Assembly: GCA_022703625.1 (NCBI GenBank)
Contig: JAKLDH010000010.1
Location: 1 to 40,617, forward strand
Direction: 5' to 3'
DNA from: Cyanobacteriota bacterium
GTDB lineage: Bacteria > Cyanobacteriota > Vampirovibrionia > Gastranaerophilales > UBA9971
Length of the DNA stretch: 40,617 nt
The notes under the pieces were generated by a model. It saw only the letters and a list, made by a program, of their open reading frames with translations, was not told where the DNA came from and did no database searches. Position 1 is the stretch's first letter. Every line of letters starts with the position of its first letter. Below, piece by piece: positions 1,908 through 24,426 of the stretch. A program made the position numbers and the translations under genes.

Positions 1908-2213
1908 TGAAAAAGTTGATTTTTGTAAGTCCTTAATTTGCGGGTGTTTTGCCGAAGGCAAAACACCCGCTATACCCTTACCCAGCTCGCGCCGCCCGCA
2001 GGGCGGCGCGAGCTGTACATATCAGCGTTTTAAGTAGGTAACAAAAAATTTTCAGGTTTTTATCTACCCAACCCCAACCCCTTCCCTTCAAAGGGAAGGG
2101 GTTGGGGTTGTTTGTTTGCCTCACTCGCTTCGCTCGTTCGGCAAAATTTAATAAGAGCTGAAAATTTTTTGTCTGTTACTTAACAAATCAACGAAAACTT
2201 ATTTTGATTGACA
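1908..2213. repeat. Repeat D1, interrupted by element C1
   Basis: D1 consists of two strong hairpins (around 1940-1969, stem CGGGTGTTTTGCC; around 1983-2014, stem CAGCTCGCGCCGCCC) and the D terminus CCAATCAAAATAAG read on the minus strand at its right end. Element C1 lies inside it at 2034-2179; removing C1 and one TTAA restores the uninterrupted D sequence seen at 31009-31166. The right end overlaps the last codons of carA. Confidence 0.8.
2034..2179. mobile_element. MITE-like element C1 (146 bp, TTAA target)
   Basis: The ends are imperfect inverted repeats (about 18 of 22 positions) beginning GTAGGTAAC and ending GTCTGTTAC, with inner arms AAAAAATTTTCAG / CTGAAAATTTTTT. TTAA occurs immediately outside both ends (2030-2033, 2180-2183), as expected for target duplication. 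The middle is a perfect hairpin of CAACCCCTTCCC-type sequence plus a TCGCTTCGCTCG stretch. There is no coding capacity. A second copy of identical length is at 14670-14815. Confidence 0.82.
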
Positions 2214-3290
2214 TAGAAGAGCATTAACCCAGTCTTTAAAGATATAATTTGCGTCCTGTGGTCCGGGACCGGCTTCCGGATGAAATTGGACTGTATTTAT
2301 ATTGAATTTAGGACTGCAAAACCCCTCTACCGTTTCATCATTAACATTTATATGCGTTATTTGCATATCCTGCGGCAATTTTTTGGAAGAAACAGCGTAA
2401 CCATGATTTTGAGCGGTCATCATAACCTTATTTGTTCTTAAATCTATGACAGGATGGTTGCTTCCCCTGTGTCCAAATTTTAATTTATAAGTATCAGCCC
2501 CGATAGCAAGAGCAAGAATTTGATGACCAAGACAAATTCCGTAAAGAGGAAGCTTTCCCATAAGATTTTTAGCTGTTTCTATTGCCCCTTTTGCTTCTTT
2601 TGGATCACCGGGTCCGTTAGAAAACAATACCGCTTCAAAATTTCCGTCAAGAATTGTCTGAGCAGATACATCATGAGGGAATATGCTGATTTCACAGCCA
2701 AGAAGCACAAAATGCCTGATTATTCCTCTTTTAATTCCAAGATCAATCAAAGCTATCTTCTTTCCATTGCCTTTTATAACGTCAACATCTTTTCTTGAAA
2801 CCTGTTTTACAACATCATAAGGGAATTTAAATTCCTGCAACTGTTTTTTCAAAGAATCTTTTAACTGTTTGCCCAATGCGCCTGTAATGTCCTGCGTGGT
2901 TATAACACAATTCATAACGCCTTTTGCCCTGATTTTTTTCGTTAACATTCTTGTGTCAACGCCGCTTATGCAGGGTATATTGTTTTCTTTTAAATATTCT
3001 GAAAGGCTTTTAACGCTTTTCCAGTTGGATTCAATGTCAGAAAGCTCTTTAATGACAAATCCTCTTAGGTGAATCCTTGCGGATTCGACGTCTTCTTCGT
3101 TAATTCCGTAATTTCCTATAAGCGGATAAGTCATAACAACAATTTGTCCGGCGTAGGAAGGGTCTGTCAAAATTTCCTGATAACCTGTCATTCCGGTATT
3201 AAATACAATCTCGCCAAAGGAAGTTGCGTCTGCCCCGCAGGAAACCCCCTGTAATTCTGTCCCGTCTTCAAGTATTATAGTTGCTTTCAT
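2199..3290 (-). CDS. carA: Carbamoyl-phosphate synthase small subunit
   Basis: Glutaminase subunit that feeds ammonia to CarB for carbamoyl phosphate, used for arginine and pyrimidines in the cytosol. At 363 aa it is of normal length. The N-terminal CPSase small-chain domain covers residues 1-150 (FNTGMTGYQEILTDPSY). The class I glutamine amidotransferase domain has the nucleophile Cys253 in GICLGHQ and His337/Glu339 in QFHPEAG, so the triad is complete. GGGAAAA precedes the ATG, and the gene starts 13 bp after the antitoxin stop, so it is last in the operon. carB is not in the window. The last residues (CQSK) and stop are encoded by the terminus of repeat D1. Identification is firm. Confidence 0.97.
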   Translation of the reverse strand: MKATIILEDGTELQGVSCGADATSFGEIVFNTGMTGYQEILTDPSYAGQIVVMTYPLIGNYGINEEDVESARIHLRGFVIKELSDIESNWKSVKSLSEYLKENNIPCISGVDTRMLTKKIRAKGVMNCVITTQDITGALGKQLKDSLKKQLQEFKFPYDVVKQVSRKDVDVIKGNGKKIALIDLGIKRGIIRHFVLLGCEISIFPHDVSAQTILDGNFEAVLFSNGPGDPKEAKGAIETAKNLMGKLPLYGICLGHQILALAIGADTYKLKFGHRGSNHPVIDLRTNKVMMTAQNHGYAVSSKKLPQDMQITHINVNDETVEGFCSPKFNINTVQFHPEAGPGPQDANYIFKDWVNALLCQSK

Positions 3291-3303
3291 TATTTTTCCC
3301 TTT

Positions 3304-3585
3304 TTACGCCAGATTCTTATGAATAATTTCTTTTAATAATGTTTGATAAGGCATGTTTTTCTCTTTTGCCAGTTTTTTAGCTATTTGAATATCTATAACA
3401 TTCAGCCTTATTGTTACAGGCTTTGTTTCAGGCTTTACAACCTTCCATTCAGCAGTTTCTATGTCAGATTCATCTTCAGGATTAAAATTCTTAATAAAGT
3501 CCTCCGCTTCACATTCAGGACAAAACCATTCTTTATTTTTATCCAAAAATAATTCGGATTGGCATTTTTTACACTTTTTAATCAT
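3304..3585 (-). CDS. CopG/BrnA-like antitoxin with zinc ribbon
   Basis: 93 residues. Residues 1-30 carry two CxxC pairs (KCKKC and FCPEC), a treble-clef or zinc-ribbon motif. The C-terminal half (VTIRLNVIDIQIAKKLAKEKNMPYQTLLKEIIHKNLA, given here only as motif spans 56-93) matches the ribbon-helix-helix CopG antitoxin pattern that follows BrnT-type toxins. It overlaps the toxin by 8 bp and has a consensus AGGAGGT nine bases before its ATG, whereas the toxin has no Shine-Dalgarno, which favours antitoxin excess. Such antitoxins usually bind the toxin and repress their own promoter. Zinc binding and DNA binding are inferred from motifs. Confidence 0.75.
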   Translation of the reverse strand: MIKKCKKCQSELFLDKNKEWFCPECEAEDFIKNFNPEDESDIETAEWKVVKPETKPVTIRLNVIDIQIAKKLAKEKNMPYQTLLKEIIHKNLA

Positions 3586-3865
3586 TTTTATTTACCTCCT
3601 GATTCCATTTTATTATATATTTTCTGCTTGCAGGATATACGGTAATAATTTTAACAGCATTACTTTTTTTATTTATTATACAAACAATAACTAAAAATCT
3701 TTTCTTTTGAGTATGCCCAATTACTTTTGTTATGCGTTCATTTAATTCAGTTTCAATATAAACATTTGAAAATACCTCCAGAATTTCGTCCTCTGAAATA
3801 TCAGAATGATTTACCTGATAATGTATTTTATTAAATTTTTTATCAAAACTAAATTCAATTTCCAT
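3578..3865 (-). CDS. BrnT-like toxin (type II TA)
   Basis: About 95 residues from the ATG at 3865: MEIEFSFDKKFNKIHYQVNH, then ISEDEILEVFSN and ERITKVIGHTQKKRFLVIVC, ending in a basic YPASRKYIIKW. This order (DxxK near the N-terminus, helix, then R...G.T...R.L.V.. strands and a terminal RxA/SR-K element) is that of the BrnT ribonuclease family, a RelE-like fold that cleaves RNA. A longer reading from a TTG at 3904 is rejected because that TTG is the -35 box of a good promoter. The gene lies between argB and the antitoxin. Family assignment is by pattern, not by search. Confidence 0.7.
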   Translation of the reverse strand: MEIEFSFDKKFNKIHYQVNHSDISEDEILEVFSNVYIETELNERITKVIGHTQKKRFLVIVCIINKKSNAVKIITVYPASRKYIIKWNQEVNKND

Positions 3866-3875
3866 ATTATTATTA

Positions 3876-3904
3876 ATCTTACACCAATAGTATGTACATG
3901 TCAA
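3876..3904 (-). promoter_or_regulatory. Sigma-70-type promoter of the TA module
   Basis: On the minus strand, a perfect TTGACA (3904-3899), a 17-base spacer, then TAAGAT (3881-3876). The expected transcription start is about 3868-3870, only a few bases before the toxin ATG at 3865, so the toxin mRNA would be nearly leaderless. The spacer contains the palindrome TGTACA, a possible operator for the antitoxin. Confidence 0.7.
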
Positions 3905-3913
3905 TACAGCATC

Positions 3914-4792
3914 TTAATTGTCATTGTATACAAGAGTTCCAAAGCCTTTATCTGTAAAGATATCTAGCAGAAGGCTGTGTTCAATTCTTCCGTCAAGAAT
4001 ATGCACGGCGCTTACGCCTTTTTTAACGGCTTCCATGCAACAGTCGATTTTAGGGATCATTCCGCCGGAAATCGTTTTATCATCAATTAATTTTTGAGCC
4101 TCTGAAACGCTTATTCTCGAAATTAAAGAAGATGGATCGTTCACATCTTTTAAAAGTCCTTCTATGTCTGTTAAAAAGATTAGTTTCTCGGCTTTTAAAG
4201 CTCCTGCAATAGCAGATGCCGCATAATCAGCGTTTATATTGTACGAATTGCCTTCCATCTCTCTTGCTACAGGCGAAATTACCGGAATAAAATCTTTTTC
4301 GATAAGAATTTCAATAAGTTCCGTATTTACTGTTTCAACTTCGCCTATAAAACCGACATCCTGACCGTTAATAAATTTTTTCTTCGCAATAAGCAAATTC
4401 CCGTCTTTACCGCTTATTCCAACGGCGTTTAACCCTTGATTTTGCAAATTTGCGGAAATTTCCTTGTTAATTTTGCCGGAAAGAGTCATTTCAACAACTT
4501 CCATTGTTTCTTCATCCGTAACCCTTAATCCTTCAACAAATTCGGATTTTTTTTGGATTTTATTTAAAAAATTATTTATTTCAGGTCCGCCTCCATGTAC
4601 AATGACAGGAAAGATTCCAGCCATTTTCATAAAAGATATGTCCTGAACAACCTGTTTTTTTAAGGTTTCATTAAGCATTGCGCTTCCGCCGTACTTAATT
4701 ACAACAATTTTATTTCTGAAAGACCTTAAATAAGGTAGAGTTTCTACTAATATTTTGGCTTTATCTATGTGTTTTTGCATATTTACACTCAT
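3914..4792 (-). CDS. argB: Acetylglutamate kinase
   Basis: Second step of arginine synthesis: ATP-dependent phosphorylation of N-acetylglutamate. 292 aa, normal length. It shows the amino acid kinase signatures: VIKYGGSAM for phosphate binding near residue 32, IVHGGGPEINNFL near 66, the substrate loop DEETMEVVEMTLSGKINKEI, NINADYAASAIAGAL, and GGMIPKI near the C-terminus. The ATG abuts the argJ stop (TAA then ATG), so translation is probably coupled. MQKHIDKA, four codons in, is an alternative start. N-terminal helix residues (HIDKAKILVETLPYLRSF) resemble the arginine-sensitive hexameric kinases, so feedback inhibition by arginine is plausible. Confidence 0.96.
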   Translation of the reverse strand: MSVNMQKHIDKAKILVETLPYLRSFRNKIVVIKYGGSAMLNETLKKQVVQDISFMKMAGIFPVIVHGGGPEINNFLNKIQKKSEFVEGLRVTDEETMEVVEMTLSGKINKEISANLQNQGLNAVGISGKDGNLLIAKKKFINGQDVGFIGEVETVNTELIEILIEKDFIPVISPVAREMEGNSYNINADYAASAIAGALKAEKLIFLTDIEGLLKDVNDPSSLISRISVSEAQKLIDDKTISGGMIPKIDCCMEAVKKGVSAVHILDGRIEHSLLLDIFTDKGFGTLVYNDN

Positions 4793-6031
4793 TTATGTTC
4801 TGTATTCACCGTTAATCTTGACATAATCATACGTTAAATCACATCCCCAAGCTGTAGCTTCTTCTTTTCCGTCTTTTAAAGCGAAAAGAATTTGTATTTC
4901 CCGTTCTTTTAACACATTTAAAGCCAGGTCTTCATCAAAAATAACCGGCTCTCCGCTTATCAACGGACTAATTGCGCCTGCTGCGCTTGAAAATTCAACG
5001 TCTGCTCTGGAATGATCAAAGTTAGCTCCTGAATATCCGGCGGCGCAAACTATTCTTCCCCAGTTGGCATCTGATCCGAACATTGCGGTTTTCACCAGGT
5101 TTGAATTAATTATAGACTTTGCAATCTTTCTCGCATCCTCTTTAGTTGATGCGCCTTGAACTTTAACTTCAAGAAATTTGGTTACGCCTTCTCCATCCAT
5201 AATTATCTGCTTTGCAAGATACAAAGTAACATATTCAAGAGCTTTTTTGAACTTGTTATAATCTCTATCTTCAGTTTCTATAGGGGAATTTCCCGCCTGA
5301 CCGTTAGCAAGCGCAATTACCATGTCGTTTGTGCTGGTGTCCCCATCGACAGAAATCATATTAAATGAATCATCAACACATTCTTTAAGACATTTTTGCA
5401 ATAATTTTCTGTTAATATCAGCGTCAGTTGTTACAAAAGCAAGCATTGTAGCCATATTCGGATGAATCATGCCAGAACCTTTTGCAATTGCTCCAAATCT
5501 TACTGTTTTTCCGTTTATTTCCGTTTCTATAGCTATTTCTTTTGGGAATTTGTCGGTTGTCATTATACCTTCAGCGGCTTTACGGGAAGATTTTTCGGCA
5601 TTATCCATTTTGGGAAAAAGATTTTTTATACCCTGAGAAATGACCTCCATAGGAAGCTGAACGCCTATAACTCCTGTTGAAGCCACTAAAATCGACTCTT
5701 TACTGACATTAAGGCATTCCGCATATATTTGCGCCATTAATTCAGTATTTTTCCTGCCGGTTTCACCGGTGCATGCGTTTGCGACACCGCTGTTTATTAC
5801 AATTCCGTTAATATTATTGATTATTTTTTGTTGATTCCACAGAACCGGAGGAGCTTTGACGCTGTTTAAGGTGAAAACTCCCGCTGCTGTTGCAGGAACA
5901 TCGCTTTTAATCAGCGTTAAATCTTTTCTTTTCTTTTTAATTCCAATATGATCGCCTGTTGCAGAGAACCCTTGCGGCACTGTTATACTTCCTGCGATTA
6001 CATTTATGTCTTTTATTTTGGTATTTTCCAT
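4793..6031 (-). CDS. argJ: Bifunctional ornithine acetyltransferase / N-acetylglutamate synthase
   Basis: It recycles the acetyl group from acetylornithine onto glutamate, so the pathway is of the cyclic type. The start is the ATG at 6031 with GGA six bases upstream, which gives 412 aa; an in-frame TTG at 6043 is less likely. The autocleavage motif is present (KGSGMIHPNMATMLAF); the Ala-Thr bond corresponds to Ala194-Thr195 in this numbering, the Thr becoming the nucleophile of the beta chain. VINSGVANACTG near residue 80, SVDGDTSTND and GDANWGR-type motifs (here GSDANWGRIVCAAGYSG) are also present. It lies directly between argC and argB. Confidence 0.96.
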   Translation of the reverse strand: MENTKIKDINVIAGSITVPQGFSATGDHIGIKKKRKDLTLIKSDVPATAAGVFTLNSVKAPPVLWNQQKIINNINGIVINSGVANACTGETGRKNTELMAQIYAECLNVSKESILVASTGVIGVQLPMEVISQGIKNLFPKMDNAEKSSRKAAEGIMTTDKFPKEIAIETEINGKTVRFGAIAKGSGMIHPNMATMLAFVTTDADINRKLLQKCLKECVDDSFNMISVDGDTSTNDMVIALANGQAGNSPIETEDRDYNKFKKALEYVTLYLAKQIIMDGEGVTKFLEVKVQGASTKEDARKIAKSIINSNLVKTAMFGSDANWGRIVCAAGYSGANFDHSRADVEFSSAAGAISPLISGEPVIFDEDLALNVLKEREIQILFALKDGKEEATAWGCDLTYDYVKINGEYRT

Positions 6032-6128
6032 TTTTTTCCACAATTTTTATTAAATATATGAAAATTTTAACATTATACATATATTTAGAAAGAATTATTT
6101 TATAAAATATTTCAAAAAATATACAAAA

Positions 6129-7172
6129 TTAAAGACAAAATGGCGCTGTCTGCAATCCTGTTTTCTCATCCAGCTTGAATAAAATGTTCATATTCTGTAC
6201 TGCCTGACCTGAAGCACCTTTAACAAGATTGTCGATCGCTCCTACAACGATTATATTACCGGTTCTGCGGTCAATTTTAAAGCCCACATCATAAAAATTG
6301 GAATTTCTGACCCATCTTGTTTCAGGATAAACCTCTTTTTCAGTAATTCTTATGAAATACTCTTTTTCGTAATATTTCATAAAAACCTGTTTAACATCAT
6401 CATAAGTCAGGGATTTATCAAGCAATTTAGCGTAGCAAGTCGATAAAATTCCACGTTGCATAGGCACAAGAGTCGGCGTAAAGGTTAATTTTATCTCTTT
6501 ACCGGCAAATTCACTTAATTCCTGCTCAATTTCCGGTGTATGTCTATGATCCGCTATTTTATAAGCTTTTGTTGTTTCATTACATTCAGCAAAATGAACT
6601 CCCTGGCTTAAAGACCGTCCAGCTCCTGTTACGCCTGATTTTGCATCCACAATTATTGTTTCTGTATCTATTAAACCTTCTTTTAAAAGGGGAAGCAGGC
6701 TTAAAATACTGCAAGTTGTGTAACATCCAGGATTTGCAATAAGCCTTGCGTTCTTAATCTGATCTCTTTTCCACTCACAAAGTCCATATACAGCTTCCTC
6801 AAGAAGTTCTGGAGATTCATGTTCTGTTTTATACCATTCTTCGTAAACTTCCCTGCTTCTTAACCTGAAATCAGCTCCAAGATCAATAACTTTAACTTTA
6901 TCAAGAATCTTTTTTGCGATTTTTTTGCATGCTATCCCGTGAGGGAGCGCAAAGAAAATCACATCAACCTTTTCAGCCAGTTCTTCGATGTTTTCTTCAA
7001 TGCATTCATGGGAAATAATATTTTTAAAATTGGGGTAAATGTCGGAATATTTCTGTCCAACGTTACTTTGAGAGGTTATATAAGAAATTTCAGCCTGCGG
7101 ATGGGCTGAAAGAATTCTTACGAGTTCTTCTCCCACATATCCTGTTGCTCCAATTATCGCTGTTTTTATCAT
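6129..7172 (-). CDS. argC: N-acetyl-gamma-glutamyl-phosphate reductase
   Basis: NADPH-dependent reduction in the third step of arginine synthesis. 347 aa, full length. The N-terminal Rossmann motif is IIGATGYVGEELVRIL, then FALPHGIA and IDLGADFRLR. The catalytic Cys150 lies in NPGCYTTC, and the substrate-binding region has KSGVTGAGRSL and the conserved HRHTPEIEQ. AAGG lies seven bases before the ATG, in the 12-base gap after the preceding 37-residue ORF. About 100 bp separate it from argJ, so argCJB is one transcription unit but with a looser first junction. Confidence 0.96.
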   Translation of the reverse strand: MIKTAIIGATGYVGEELVRILSAHPQAEISYITSQSNVGQKYSDIYPNFKNIISHECIEENIEELAEKVDVIFFALPHGIACKKIAKKILDKVKVIDLGADFRLRSREVYEEWYKTEHESPELLEEAVYGLCEWKRDQIKNARLIANPGCYTTCSILSLLPLLKEGLIDTETIIVDAKSGVTGAGRSLSQGVHFAECNETTKAYKIADHRHTPEIEQELSEFAGKEIKLTFTPTLVPMQRGILSTCYAKLLDKSLTYDDVKQVFMKYYEKEYFIRITEKEVYPETRWVRNSNFYDVGFKIDRRTGNIIVVGAIDNLVKGASGQAVQNMNILFKLDEKTGLQTAPFCL

Positions 7173-7722: not shown

Positions 7723-8461
7723 TTAATAATTCATTGCGTTTTCATTAATAACCTTAAAAGCGCATGAAACCCCGGCTACTTTAGGAATAGAAATAAGTGA
7801 AGTAGTGCAGGGTTGGGCAATTTGAACTAAATTTCCTAAATCGTCATAACTATTTTGATTTCCACGAGGATAAATTCCTCTTTTTGTCAGATCAAAGGCA
7901 AATATATCTCTTCCATAAATATTTGGTCCGTTAAAACCATTTACATCGACATAAACGTCAGTACATTGTTCATATACACCATTTATTTGATACATAATAC
8001 TATTACATTGTGATTTATATGAATCATAAAAAGCAATGAGCATACCATTTGCTAAAACAGCTCTCGGAAGTTTGGTAAAGTTTATCCAACTATTCACATT
8101 ATTAAGCGTCTTAAAATAAGTATGAAAACATATTCCGGATTGAGTATTTTTGGGACACTTTTTAATGCATTTTAAAACGGTGCAATATTTTTCCATTAGT
8201 AAATCAACATTATTTGAAGGAACTATATTAACCATTCCGTCTGAACTATCAACCATTAACATTTTTGTGCCCTGAATTAATGTAGAATTAGCAATTTTTA
8301 ATCCTGATATCCAAGCTTTTTTTTCAATGGTTAATATAAGAGAAGGAAGCGTTTCTGCCGCAATCACTCCAAGTATAAAAACAACAAGTAGTGTTTCCGC
8401 CAGAGTAAAGCCCTTGCGGGATTTATTTTCTACCCCCCCCCGTAAAGTTTACTGTACGCAT
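7723..8461 (-). pseudogene. Pseudopilin-like protein, split by a G9 tract (possible phase-variable gene)
   Basis: With the ATG at 8461 (GGAG six bases upstream), the frame reads MRTVNFT then glycines and stops within a few codons, because nine G lie at 8441-8433. With eight (or eleven) G it continues as GVENKSRKGFTLAETLLVV, a textbook type IV prepilin signal: basic leader, Gly before the cleavage site, Phe+1, Glu+5, then a hydrophobic helix. The mature region of about 215 residues is cysteine-rich (VLKCIKKCP, GICFH) and ends with a GPNIYGRDIFAF motif seen in pseudopilin-like secreted proteins. It is therefore either switched off by slipped-strand change or carries a sequencing indel. An in-frame GTG at 8367 would yield only the leaderless part. 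It follows the 93-residue gene by 25 bp. Confidence 0.75.
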
Positions 8462-8486
8462 TTACATCTCCTTACAGTGTTTTTTA

Positions 8487-8768
8487 CTACGCAACATTTT
8501 TATAAACACTTACAATAAGCTGATATAAACTGTCTATCCGGTGGTTTAAAACCTTTATTTGCTGCCTGAAGTCTTTATCTGTATCATCTATACGCTGAGA
8601 TAAATATTTAATATCCTGTCGAACATCTTTTATGGCATTTTCCTGTTTTATATCAAATTTTTCTATTTTTTTATCCAGCCTCGCATAAAAATAAAATACG
8701 ATTAAGTTTATCAAAATCAACTGTACAGGATTTACAAGTTTGACTGCTTCTACAAAAAAATTTTCCAT
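8487..8768 (-). CDS. Coiled-coil membrane protein, 93 aa
   Basis: One N-terminal transmembrane helix (about residues 12-29, NPVQLILINLIVFYFYAR), then a long charged coiled coil (KKIEKFDIKQENAIKDVRQD, then HRIDSLYQLIVSV) to the end. AAAGGA lies six bases before the ATG, so the start is good. The layout resembles small membrane-anchored coiled-coil proteins such as the XhlA-like group, but the family is unproven. It is transcribed just ahead of the pseudopilin-like gene and may act with it at the envelope. Confidence 0.7.
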   Translation of the reverse strand: MENFFVEAVKLVNPVQLILINLIVFYFYARLDKKIEKFDIKQENAIKDVRQDIKYLSQRIDDTDKDFRQQIKVLNHRIDSLYQLIVSVYKNVA

Positions 8769-18760: not shown

Positions 18761-20137
18761 TTATATTTTAACCCCTATAACCTTTTCAAGCCTTGCCAGA
18801 GCTGTATTGTAATCATAAAGAGCGGTATAATAAGCAAGCTTGGCATTTCTATGCGTTAATTCTGCGTCTTTAAGCTCGATAGGGTTTCCTACTCCCACTT
18901 CATAACGTCCTCTTGCAAGATTATAACTTTCTTCCGCCTGTTTTAAAGCTATTTCTGTAGCTGGAATAGTATTTTTTGCTTCAATAAAATTGATATATGT
19001 CTGTTTAACTTGAAAATAAAGATCATTCTGTAAGGATTGAGCCTCAGAACATTCTTTTTCATACAATGCTCTAGCCTCATTAACCTTTTTCTTTGTATGA
19101 TATGCGTTTAATACCGGCAAATCCAGCGCTATTCCCGCATTCCATCCCTCGTCTATTTTTGAATCAGTACTTGTATCTAAATGTTTAAGATTAAATCCTG
19201 AAAAACCTTCCAGCGAAGGCAAATAATCTTTTTTTGCAAGTCTGATTTCTTTTTTCGACGCTTCTACTTTAAGAGCGGCGGATTTATAATCCGGTCTATT
19301 CTCATACGCTGTTTTTATCAACTCTTCAAGCTCAAAATCGTGCTCTGTATAAGTCAATTGGTCTTTTAAATTATAAAACGGGGACTTAGGTAGACCCATT
19401 ACATTATTTAAGCTCGCAAAAGCTATGCTTACATTATTTTTAGCCTTAATAAGTTCCAGCTCCGCATTGCTAAGATTGACTTCTGCGGTCATCATATCAA
19501 TTTTTGGCTTCGTTCCTATTTCATAAAAAGCTTTTGTCTGTTCCAAATGCTTTTTATACTTGTCTACAGCTTCTTTTATAACTTCTTGTTTATGAAAAGC
19601 AAGAAGCAGCTTAAAATATGACTGTTTTACATTAAATACAATATCATTTATAACAGTCCTAAGATCGGCTTCAGTAGCATTAAAATGGGTTTTTTGGATG
19701 TCTATATTAGTTGTGGTCTTTCCGAAGTCGTAAATCAGCTGGGTAATTCCAATATTGACAATGCTAAAAGTGTTTGTATTATTGTCAAGACTTGTTGTTA
19801 TAGTATTAGGATTGGTAACAGAGTAACCGTTTGAGATGTTAAATCTCGGGAAATAATCGGCTTTAGCCATTCCTATCCGGTTTTGAAAAGCTTCTGTATT
19901 ACTAATAGCGGCTTTGATCGTTGGATTGTTAGAAATAGCTATTTTTAAACAGTTATCCAGTGTTAAATACTGATTTTCTTCTATGCCACTTTCAATAACT
20001 CTTGTAATTTCGTCTTTATGCTCTTCTATTTGCTTTTCTGCTGATTTAATATCTTCTTTTTTAGCGTTTACCGGCATGGAATAAGCGATAAAAACAGTTA
20101 AAATCAGTAATAATAATGATTTATAATTCTTTATCAT
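18761..20137 (-). CDS. TolC-family outer membrane efflux channel
   Basis: 458 aa with an N-terminal signal peptide ([20 protein letters not shown], cleaved after NAK or VNA). The body shows the two internal repeats of the outer-membrane efflux protein family: [20 protein letters not shown] near residue 58 and [20 protein letters not shown] near 265, long coiled-coil helices, and [20 protein letters not shown] near the C-terminus. It forms the outer-membrane exit duct for the RND pump encoded upstream. Its start (GAGGAG seven bases upstream) overlaps the RND stop by 17 bp, so translation is coupled. A typical Gram-negative (diderm) envelope is implied. Confidence 0.93.
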
Positions 20138-23100
20138 GGATTAACTCCTCATTTTGACCCGAATTAGAGCTTGTAAGCAACTTGCGTTTTCTATGTTTTT
20201 CTTTAATATTTTCAATTATAGTGTAAAATGCAGGAACTAAAGCCGTACCTATTAATGTTGCGGCTATCATTCCTCCAAAAACAGTATTTCCTATTGAATG
20301 TCTGGCTCCTGCTCCAGCTCCTGTAGCTATTACAAGAGGTATTATGCTAAAAATAAACGTAAGAGATGTCATTACAATTGCCCTAAACCTAAGTTTTGCC
20401 GCTGACAATGCAGCATCTGCCGCACTAAAGCCATATTCTTCCCGCTGGGTTTTAGCAAATTCAATAATAAGGATGGCATTTTTTGTCGCCATACCAACAA
20501 GCATAATAAGTCCAACCTGACAATATAAATCAAGACTCATCCCTGCAATCATTTGCGCCACCAAGCCGCCTATAACAGCAATAGGAGCAATTAATATAAC
20601 CCCGAAAGGCAACGTCCAGCTTTCATATAAAGCTACAAGAAAAAGATAAACAAAAACCAGCGACAATAGCAATACATATATCGTTTGCCCGCTTGCTTCG
20701 ACCTCCTGCCTTGCTGTTCCAGACCATTCATAGGAAGTGTCAGAAGGAAGAACAATTTCAGCAAGGTTTTTCATTGATTCAAGAGCTTCTCCTGAACTTA
20801 CACCCATAGCGGAGCTGCCATTTATTGCTAATGATCTAAACATATTGAATCTGCTTAGTTTTTGAGGACCAACCGTAGATTCAACAGTAACTAAAGCGCT
20901 TAAAGGCACCATTTCGCCTCTGTTATTTCTAACATACAGGCTTGTAATATCTTCAATATTATCTCTATATTTTGTATCTGCCTGAATTTTTACCTGAAAA
21001 ACCCGTCCCAATTTATTAAAATCATTAGCATAAGCTGAACCAAACTGCGCGCTAAGAGCAGAGAAGATATCTTTAATGTTTACTCCCTGAGCAAGAGCTT
21101 TTTCTTGATCAACATTAATGTATAACTGCGGCATATTTGCCTGAAAAGTAGTAAATACACGTTCAAGCTTTGGATTTTGGCTTGCTGCGCCGATAAGTTT
21201 CCAGGCGGCATCGGCAAGATATTGCGGCGAATTATCGCCCCTGTCCTGAAGCTGGAACTCAAATCCGCCGAACATCCCTAGCCCTGGGATTGCAGGAGGA
21301 GTAAAAGCAAAAATTTGAGCTTCGTTAATCATAAAAAATTGTTTTTGAAGCCGTCCTATAACTGCTTGTGAAGAGTATTCCACGCCTGGTCTTTCTTCCC
21401 ATTTTTTCATATCTCCAATTACCAGGCAGGTATTAGACCCTCCCCAGCCTGGAACCACCACTATTTTATTGATTTCAGGAGTATTTTTAAATATTTCCTC
21501 CACTTTGCGAGCCACTTTATCAGTTCTCATCAGAGAAGCTCCTTCAGGCAACTGGATTTGCGCCATAATAAATCCCTGGTCTTCTTCCGGCAAAAAGCCT
21601 GTAGGCATAATTTTAAACATTAATAAAATTCCCGCAACCAGTCCAGCCAATATTATCAAGGTTAATGAGGATTTTTTTATAAGCGATGCAGATAATTTTA
21701 AATATTTTCCCTTAAAGTCTTCAAAAGCTTTATTAAAGATATTCCAGAAATTTAAAGTTACTTTATCTTTTGTTTGAGCTTTTAACAGGATTCCACAAAG
21801 AGCAGGAGATAATGTTAAAGCGACTAATGCGGAAATTGAAACTGAAATCGAAATAGTAACGGCAAATTGTTTATACATTTTTCCTACAATCCCTGGCACC
21901 ATTGCAACAGGAACAAAAACTGCCAGAAGAACAAGAGTTGTGGCGATAATCGCCCCGCTTACTTCTTTCATCGTTTTAAAAGCGGCTTCTTTGGGGGGCA
22001 AACCGTTTGATAAATGCCTTTGCGCATTCTCAATAACAATAATAGCGTCGTCTACAACGATACCAATAGCAAGAACTAGTCCAAACAAGGTAAAAGTGTT
22101 TATCGAATAATCAAAAAGCTTTAAAAATGCGAATGTTCCAACAATTGAAACTGGAATTGCAAGTACAGGTATTAATGTAGCTCTTGCGTTCTGCAAAAAG
22201 ACATAAATTATTAGCGTAACCAGAAGTAATGCTGCAAAAAAGGTTATAAACACTTCTTCAACAGCAGCTTCAACATAACCGGCGGCGTCATAAACAATGC
22301 CTGTGGTCATTCCTTCCGGCAGGCGTTTATTTATTTCTGCCAATTCTGATTTTATAGATTTTACAACCTGCAAAAGGTTAGCGTCTGCAAGCTGATTGAC
22401 CGCTATCGCAACTGTATTGTCCCCATTTACTCGTGAAAACACTCCATAATTTGAAGAACCCAGCTCTACTCTTGCAATATCTTTTATTTTAACATAAGAA
22501 CCAGTGCTATTAGCTCTTATAATAATATTTTCAAACTCAACAGGCTCTTTAAACCTGCCTTTAGTCCTGATAATAAACTCAAATTGCTGATCGGAAGGCG
22601 AAGGATAAGAACCTACAGTTCCCGCAGGGACTTCTATATTTTGTGATCTGATTGCCTCCATAACATCACTTGCAGTGATTCCCAGATTCGCCATTTTAAG
22701 AGGATTCAACCATATCCTCATTCCATAATCTCTATCTCCGAAAATGCTTACTTCCCCAACGCCTGTAACTCTTGAAAGGACATCTTTTATATAAATTGAG
22801 GCATAATTGCTCATGTAAATTTCGTCATAGGAGTTATCAGGCGAACTTAAGGTAAATACTATAACACCAACCCCTCCTGTTCTTTCTTTTACAGCCAATC
22901 CCTGATCTCTAACCTCCTGTGGAAGTCTTGGAACGGCAAGATTTAATCTGTTTTGAACCCTAATCATTGCCATATCAGTATCTGTTCCAACTTTAAAATA
23001 GACATTTAAGCTATATCCACCGTTTGAACAACTAGATTCCATATAAATCATATCTTCTACGCCGTTAATTTCAGCTTCAATCGGCGCAGCAATAGTTTTT

Positions 23101-23276
23101 TCCACAACTTCAGCATTTGCCCCAGGATATGAAGCCCTAACGATAACCTGAGGAGGTGTTATTACAGGATATCTTTCTATCGGCAGAAAATAAAATCCTA
23201 TGATCCCAATTAAAACAATAACAAGCGATAATACAACTGAAAATCTGGGGCGTTTTATGAAAAAGTTACTGAACAT
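20121..23276 (-). CDS. RND multidrug efflux transporter (HAE1/AcrB family)
   Basis: 1051 aa from the ATG at 23276, which has GGAGG at ideal spacing; an earlier in-frame Met at 23321 lies inside the adaptor gene and is rejected. It opens [20 protein letters not shown] as in AcrB, with 12 helices and two large periplasmic loops. The proton-relay acidic pair is in [18 protein letters not shown] (helix 4, near residue 400) and the matching Lys is in [14 protein letters not shown] (helix 10). [10 protein letters not shown] and [12 protein letters not shown] are family motifs. It exports hydrophobic compounds by proton antiport with the adaptor and TolC-like channel of the same operon. Hydrophobic drug type is suggested; substrates are unknown. 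Confidence 0.96.
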
Positions 23277-24426
23277 TTTTCGCCTCCGATTTAGCCGGTT
23301 GAAGTCCTTGCGGCGGAGCAAGCATTACTTCAACTCCTGGTCTTAAGCTTTGAAGTCCTTTCATAATAACTTTTTCTCCTTCAGTCAAACCTTCTTCCAC
23401 TATCCAGTCCTCTTTTATCTGTTTTCCCACTTTAATTCTACGAATTTCTGCCTTGTTTTCCTTATCCAATGTGTAAATATACTTGCCTTCAGTATCTTCC
23501 AGAACTGCCGATTGTGGAATAACAGTTTTTTTAACTTCTTTATCTTCTGACATAACTACATTTGCCATAGTTCCGGGTAATAATATCCCTTCCGGATTGC
23601 TGAATAAGGTTGTTATTTCTATTGTTCCTGTTGTTTCATCTACTTTATTATCATAAGAGTAGTATTTACCTTCAATTGGGTAAGCTGTTCCGTCTGAAAA
23701 TTCCAGCTTTATTTTATAATTATCAAGGCTTTTACCCTCCTTAGACAGCTTTAACCTAAGTTGCGTAAATTCATCAGCCGAAATATGATATTTTACATAT
23801 ATTGGATCAAGCTTTGAAATTGTAGTAAGAGCTCCTGTAGAAGGACCCACAAGGTTTCCTTCCGTAACAACTCCCCCAATTTTACCGCTTATAGGAGCAT
23901 AAATTCTTGTATGCTCCAGGCTATGACTGACTCTCTTTAAATTTGCATTCGCATATTCAAGAGCGGCTTTGCTTCTATCTCTTATTGCAAGTTTATTGTC
24001 ATATTCCGATTTGCTTATATAGTCTTTATCAACAAGCTCTTTTGCTCTTTCAAGGTTCTTTTGGCTTTCCCACAAAGTTGCTTTCATGTTTACAATGTCT
24101 GCTTTTGCCTGATACACTGTCGCCTCGTATTCATCAGGCTCTATTAAATATAACAGATCGCCCTTATTGACAATTGCGCCACGGGCAACATACTTTTTAA
24201 TAATATACCCGTCAACATGCGGGACTATTTGAACTTCTTCTTTAGCATCCACTCGTCCAATATATTCTTTTGATTCAGTAATATTTTTTCGCTCAACAGT
24301 TGCCAGAGTAACCATTGGAGAAGGCATTTTCATTCCTTGCCTTGCTTTGCCGCTAAAAAATAGCTGTTTTATCACAAAAAATGCTACTATTATTATAATT
24401 ATTGAAATAAAAATCTTTTTTTTCAT
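23266..24426 (-). CDS. RND efflux periplasmic adaptor (MFP, AcrA-like)
   Basis: 386 aa. The N-terminal helix ([20 protein letters not shown]) anchors it in the inner membrane; no lipobox Cys is seen. Then the barrel-sandwich/lipoyl domain ([40 protein letters not shown]) around an alpha-hairpin, and beta-barrel motifs ([40 protein letters not shown]). The ATG overlaps the regulator stop by 4 bp (ATGA) and the pump start overlaps this gene by 11 bp. It links pump and outer-membrane channel. Confidence 0.95.

Follow-up and report, generated by a model that had tools for sequence, protein, structure and literature searches.

We found that a gene for a prepilin-type surface protein in the window (the whole stretch of DNA that was analysed, 40,617 nt) is probably under slipped-strand phase variation. 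The type of tract, its position, the mixed on and off states and a one-base difference between paralogues make phase variation the best reading of these sequences, and the recurrence of the arrangement in related genomes suggests that Gastranaerophilales have a large set of putatively switchable surface proteins that are normally off.

The G9 tract and the start site

Direct reading of the minus strand gave the exact extent of the tract as 8433–8441 (C9 on the plus strand), and the order on the minus strand was AAGGAG, six bases, ATGCGTACAGTAAACTTTAC-GGGGGGGGG-TAGAAAATAAATCCCGCAAG-GGCTTTACTCTGGCGGAA, so the tract does stand between ATG 8461 with its Shine-Dalgarno sequence and the prepilin signal, as the initial annotation had placed it. 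No other run of G or C longer than 6 occurred in the window, in which about 0.03 runs of at least 9 would be expected. The features were as follows.

8487–8768, minus strand: upstream ORF of 93 aa without a Pfam match, a neighbour only (ORF list, Pfam search)
8468–8473, minus strand: Shine-Dalgarno AAGGAG (six-base match)
8459–8461, minus strand: ATG start codon of the leader (best Shine-Dalgarno match; open to the tract)
8442–8461, minus strand: 20-nt leader, MRTVNF plus AC (frame analysis)
8433–8441, minus strand: G9 homopolymer tract, proposed switch (direct reading; sole G/C run above 6 in the window and one of the eight G≥8 tracts of the genome)
8423–8461, minus strand: short off-frame product at G9, MRTVNFTGGGRK then TAA (frame analysis)
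8413–8432, minus strand: 20-nt linker from the tract to the prepilin motif (frame analysis)
8395–8412, minus strand: class III prepilin motif GFTLAE, with K before it (PF07963 and TIGR02532 above cut-off)
7723–8412, minus strand: intact pilin body, 229 aa plus stop (alignment A1; AlphaFold2 model)

With G9, the frame from ATG 8461 read MRTVNFTGGGRK-stop, which was only 12 codons and confirmed that translation would halt early, and frame analysis also confirmed that a tract length of 8 or 11 makes ATG 8461 continuous with the pilin frame. The pilin frame itself contained two full codons (ACT TTA) 5′ of the tract and then TAA, with no ATG, GTG or TTG, so it has no alternative start. The remainder of the gene was intact as described before, but the earlier figure of 214 residues starts at an internal GTG; the open frame after the tract was 236 aa, or 229 aa counted from the GFTLAE motif on.

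Inspected by eye, the 93-aa ORF directly upstream of the pilin gene has a membrane segment and, after it, a coiled coil. The flanks of the region were ordinary, with arginine/carbamoyl-phosphate biosynthesis genes at 2199–7172 and an RND efflux operon at 18761–24426.

The pilin-like protein

The window protein scored above the cut-off for Pfam N_methyl (PF07963) and the NCBIfam prepilin family TIGR02532. In alignment A1 (the window protein and 19 homologues), all 13 invariant columns were kept in the window protein, including two conserved cysteines and the DVNG..PN..G.D motif. The AlphaFold2 model (pLDDT 87.6, pTM 0.82) consisted of a long N-terminal helix (11–61) and a beta domain; a Foldseek search of this model against the PDB returned no significant fold match, and the family profile matched solved type IV pilins and geopilin, mainly over the N-terminal helix. 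The class III signal G-F-T-L-x-E together with the N-terminal helix is what marks a type IV pilin-like protein, and judged by sequence and predicted structure the product of the window gene is a prepilin-type protein.

Long G tracts in the genome of the window

The 2.5-Mb genome contained eight distinct tracts of G≥8, and three of them sat between a Shine-Dalgarno-ATG start and a prepilin motif, in the states off, off and on. The genome has 10–11 prepilin-like genes, three with a leader tract, and by our own arithmetic the chance of three tracts falling in prepilin leaders is of the order of 10−9. We did not count the other five tracts as switches; they lie outside prepilin leaders and most are beside C-runs in inverted repeats. 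Long G tracts outside leaders include those at C47:3672, C112:46639, C122:3464 and C156:34536.

Two of the three leader tracts belong to neighbouring prepilin-like genes on contig C145, which both carry the tract and share a linker and a nearly identical leader (MN[LP]KIIKTN). One tract was G9 (off) and the other was G10 (in frame), with the N-terminal codons common to both. The similarity of the pair extended over about 235 bp around the leader, and within it the copies differed by substitutions and by two 1-nt indels, one in the tract and the other 5′ of the start codon. This difference of one G is what slipped-strand phase variation predicts for such copies. The offsets needed to restore the frame were −1 (or +2) for the window gene, +1 for the C145 G9 gene and 0 for the C145 G10 gene, so no single offset serves the three loci.

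Distribution across Gastranaerophilales

Genomes were searched for G7+ followed by GFTLA(E) codons within 30 nt, with the reversed pattern as control. Matches to the pattern came from 2 of 10 family genomes, 52 of 382 in the class sample and 59 of 383 in the order sample, and the reversed pattern gave zero matches in the family, class and order samples. A second genus of the family (G002) had the same architecture at G8, off. When 84,980 species were scanned, 119 among the 120 matches listed fit Gastranaerophilales/Melainabacteria, an assignment made by record title or by the same architecture in uncultured or misnamed MAGs; the one listed match that did not fit came from Rhodobacterales and had a frame of 30 aa. 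These counts show that the leader-tract architecture is strongly enriched in the order, and strict exclusivity does not follow from them. Records titled Fusobacterium sp. CAG:439 (L122, L135 and L183) had the Gastranaerophilales arrangement with up to 99.4% identity to genome G093, and the name is probably wrong. Our literature search found no report linking Gastranaerophilales with phase variation, and the papers found on Gastranaerophilales and type IV pili dealt with other subjects, judging by title and abstract.

Frame states, selection and tract-length differences

The best Shine-Dalgarno-ATG was in frame at 18 of 131 loci in 56 genomes (14%; per-genome mean 11%), with a binomial p of 6 × 10−7 that overstates independence because loci within one genome are related. 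When both gene senses and further loci were included there were 234 tract-bearing pilins, of which 153 needed +1, 58 needed −1 and 23 (10%) were on, which means that 211 of the 234 were one base out of frame. Some of the starts, assigned by Shine-Dalgarno match within 95 nt, may be mistaken, and a few genomes were possibly counted under two names. Most of the assemblies are metagenome bins, and a consensus length gives the majority state of a single sample. Homologues without a tract all had an in-frame ATG or TTG upstream.

Frames downstream of the tract were intact in nearly all matches. Matched locus pairs of the gut family that were off in both genomes had dN/dS of 0.09–0.12 at dS of 0.5–2.0, which indicates that those genes are used and have not decayed. 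Tract lengths differed between close copies: a 2.9-kb locus pair in G137 and G156 with 97.7% identity was G13 (off) in one and G12 (on) in the other, with one base change each in leader and linker too; two syntenic pairs at 80–83% identity were G10 (off) versus G11 (on); and tandem paralogues elsewhere in the order had identical leader and linker with G12 versus G10.

The window gene has marks of a contingency gene, namely a polyG of at least 8 in the 5′ part of the coding region, directly behind the 20 nt that start with the ATG, whose length sets the frame, and an intact gene beyond the tract; lengths that differ between close copies were seen in the C145 pair and elsewhere in the order. The phase variation that the initial annotation had raised as a possibility was favoured by the G9/G10 paralogues of the same genome, the other pairs of unequal length and the intact, selected gene bodies, and the comparison with relatives that it had called for revealed neither gene decay nor one uniform in-frame length.

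Proposed mechanism

In the mechanism that we propose, the G tract would gain or lose one base during DNA replication, and the window gene would be on only at tract lengths of 2 mod 3, at which the ATG leader runs into the prepilin signal. At other lengths translation would end within a few codons, so the window copy would be off in this assembly (G9). The leader is predicted to be removed by prepilin peptidase, and if it is cleaved, the tract would be of no cost to the mature protein. We infer that the tract varies in length among living cells of the population and that a pilus or pseudopilus subunit is made in the on-state.

MutS1 and MutL were both present, so loss of mismatch repair was rejected as the cause and switching rates may be moderate, as they are in Neisseria.

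The strict pattern in gut relatives and alternative explanations

Tract length and offset in gut relatives were far more uniform than at a textbook contingency locus. In G093 (CALUVV), the 795 kb read contained 85 G/C runs of at least 8, and 80 of them were exactly 10 long; genome-wide there were about 176 tracts of G≥9. Nearly all tracts in the part read (contigs C1, C2 and C3; loci L215–L284) were C-G10-C, with C on both flanks, and they kept one orientation over long stretches (397 kb) irrespective of gene direction. This orientation in G093 was approximately in step with GC skew, and in gut relatives the G tracts follow the replication strand and not the gene, which fits a process of DNA replication. 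A loose 3′ consensus (..TTAAAGCT..) followed the G093 tracts in both gene orientations and at non-pilin sites, so conserved off-frame stops after the tract were rejected as selected termination. Length 10 was kept between matched tracts of G093 and close relatives at 80–99% flank identity, with one exception (11/10).

At least 150 prepilin-motif genes were found in the 2.2 Mb of G093, and 51 of them had a leader tract in the 0.8 Mb examined; G093, G413, G042, G115 and G322 had from 81 to at least 150 such genes per genome of about 2 Mb, and other families of the order had 11–22 (the window genome 11). Non-pilin genes of G093 carried length 10 in frame, with G10/C10 inside long ORFs at C1:76066, C3:10923, C1:262382, C3:101185 and other sites. 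By eye these non-pilin tract genes were glycosyltransferase-like and DPM-like, possibly default-on switches.

Two observations count against phase variation: the consensus in gut relatives is off far beyond 2/3 (23 of 234 on), the offset being uniform within each genome, and the length of matched tracts stays at 10, with one exception, while the flanks diverge by up to 20%. The main alternative is programmed recoding, in which the tract keeps its length in the DNA and RNA-polymerase slippage or ribosomal frameshifting on the homopolymer allows pilin to be made from an out-of-frame template. This would agree with the use of one offset per gut genome, since 49 of 51 pilin-leader tracts needed +1 in G093 (35/37 sense-G, 14/14 sense-C), 17 of 19 needed −1 in Scatousia excrementigallinarum (modal length 11), and loci of G115 (modal length 9) mostly needed +1 at both G9 and G10. 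It would also agree with the purifying selection on pairs off in both genomes, and homopolymers of 9–11 are slip-prone in general. But about 10% of loci are in frame, length 10 is in frame in other genes that carry the tract, nothing in an RNA or ribosome model accounts for the fixed replication-strand orientation, and the constant offset expected under recoding is absent from the window genome (−1, +1 and 0). We consider recoding unlikely on balance, and the strict uniform pattern keeps programmed slippage or frameshifting a candidate in the gut species.

Assembly or sequencing error, with the true tract in frame, is very unlikely. Homopolymers are prone to errors and frequently interrupt Illumina contigs, as did 22 of 31 meningococcal tracts (PMC4235727), and contig C13 of G115 ends inside a tract; but the off state was found in about 50 genomes from many assemblies with an offset sign that varies by lineage, and the window genome has a comparable G10 tract in frame. 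The in-frame length 10 in non-pilin genes of G093 means that this assembly has no systematic one-base loss, and a general shortening by one base was rejected for the same reason. Contig edges within a G/C tract, known for hypervariable tracts, occurred at the end of G115:C13 and at the starts of G322:C42 and G066:C11.

It is most improbable that the window gene recently became a pseudogene and is locked in the off state. The gene is out of frame without another start, but it has 229 open codons, keeps every invariant residue of the family and gives a confident model, and dN/dS was about 0.1 in the gut-family pairs off in both genomes, although the window gene itself has no close orthologue. 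Just as little weight falls on the tract being mainly a DNA site, a polar C-Gn-C element of fixed length that serves recombination or replication and is tolerated in pilin leaders, with secondary frame effects. The C-G10-C form at unrelated genes, the loose 3′ consensus and the single orientation over 397 kb in G093 would suit such a site, but the window genome lacks such flanks, and a passive site would be expected to keep the frame in pilins just as in the other genes, yet pilins are seldom in frame.

For the window gene, slipped-strand phase variation is thus our preferred reading, and in the gut family two readings were considered. Length-dependent slippage bias may set a modal length at which the gene is off and from which a one-base step turns it on, a reading favoured by the minority of copies in frame and by the way tracts follow the replication strand; or slippage or frameshifting may be programmed, as favoured by the uniform offset. 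Since nearly all genes are out of frame by the same single step, the repertoire seems to be off by default and not a set of random switches. We tentatively propose, as a view with somewhat less than even chances, that gut Gastranaerophilales hold dozens of pilin genes per genome one base off through a near length-invariant, replication-oriented C-Gn-C element, either for programmed slippage or as a default-off stochastic repertoire with the frame tuned to the modal length. Either form would be a genome-wide expression device, of which we found no description for pilins, and the window gene would be a simpler member.

Comparison with known systems

With the proposed switch, phase variation by homopolymers would reach the non-photosynthetic lineage that is sister to cyanobacteria and occurs in guts and groundwater. 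The scale is unusual, as the prepilin-motif genes and leader tracts of G093 show, and about two hundred related genes have the arrangement, most of them out of frame. The arrangement is like the contingency loci of Campylobacter jejuni, in which polyG/polyC tracts of about 8–12 lie in surface-gene frames and set them on or off by frame, with tens per genome and a narrow length range (PMC4965091; PMC4235727). Switching in C. jejuni was measured at about 10−3 per division and mismatch repair is absent, whereas here MutS1/MutL are present and we infer the switching. The genes here are also pilin-like, unlike those of C. jejuni, and gut relatives have nearly all one length and one offset. A passage in PMC4085013 cites an insertion bias at G8–G9 and a deletion bias at G10–G11 for C. 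jejuni polyG, and this length-dependent bias is a precedent for narrow modal lengths.

Programmed transcriptional realignment or frameshifting is similar in that genes are conserved although out of frame and a homopolymer marks the junction (GeneTack survey PMC3711429; IS elements PMC1088944). Known bacterial cases are mostly at A/T runs, whereas here the runs are of G or C, the offsets are mixed in the window genome and some copies are in frame.

Phase-variable pilus and surface genes of Neisseria (such as pilC and opa) resemble the proposed switch in having repeat tracts in the 5′ part of a surface or pilus gene, translational switching and multigene repertoires. Such genes are the subject of two surveys (PMC5084427, PMC5953494). 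The major pilin of Neisseria varies mainly by gene conversion, whereas here the tract lies inside the leader, predicted to be cleaved, of many separate pilin-like genes.
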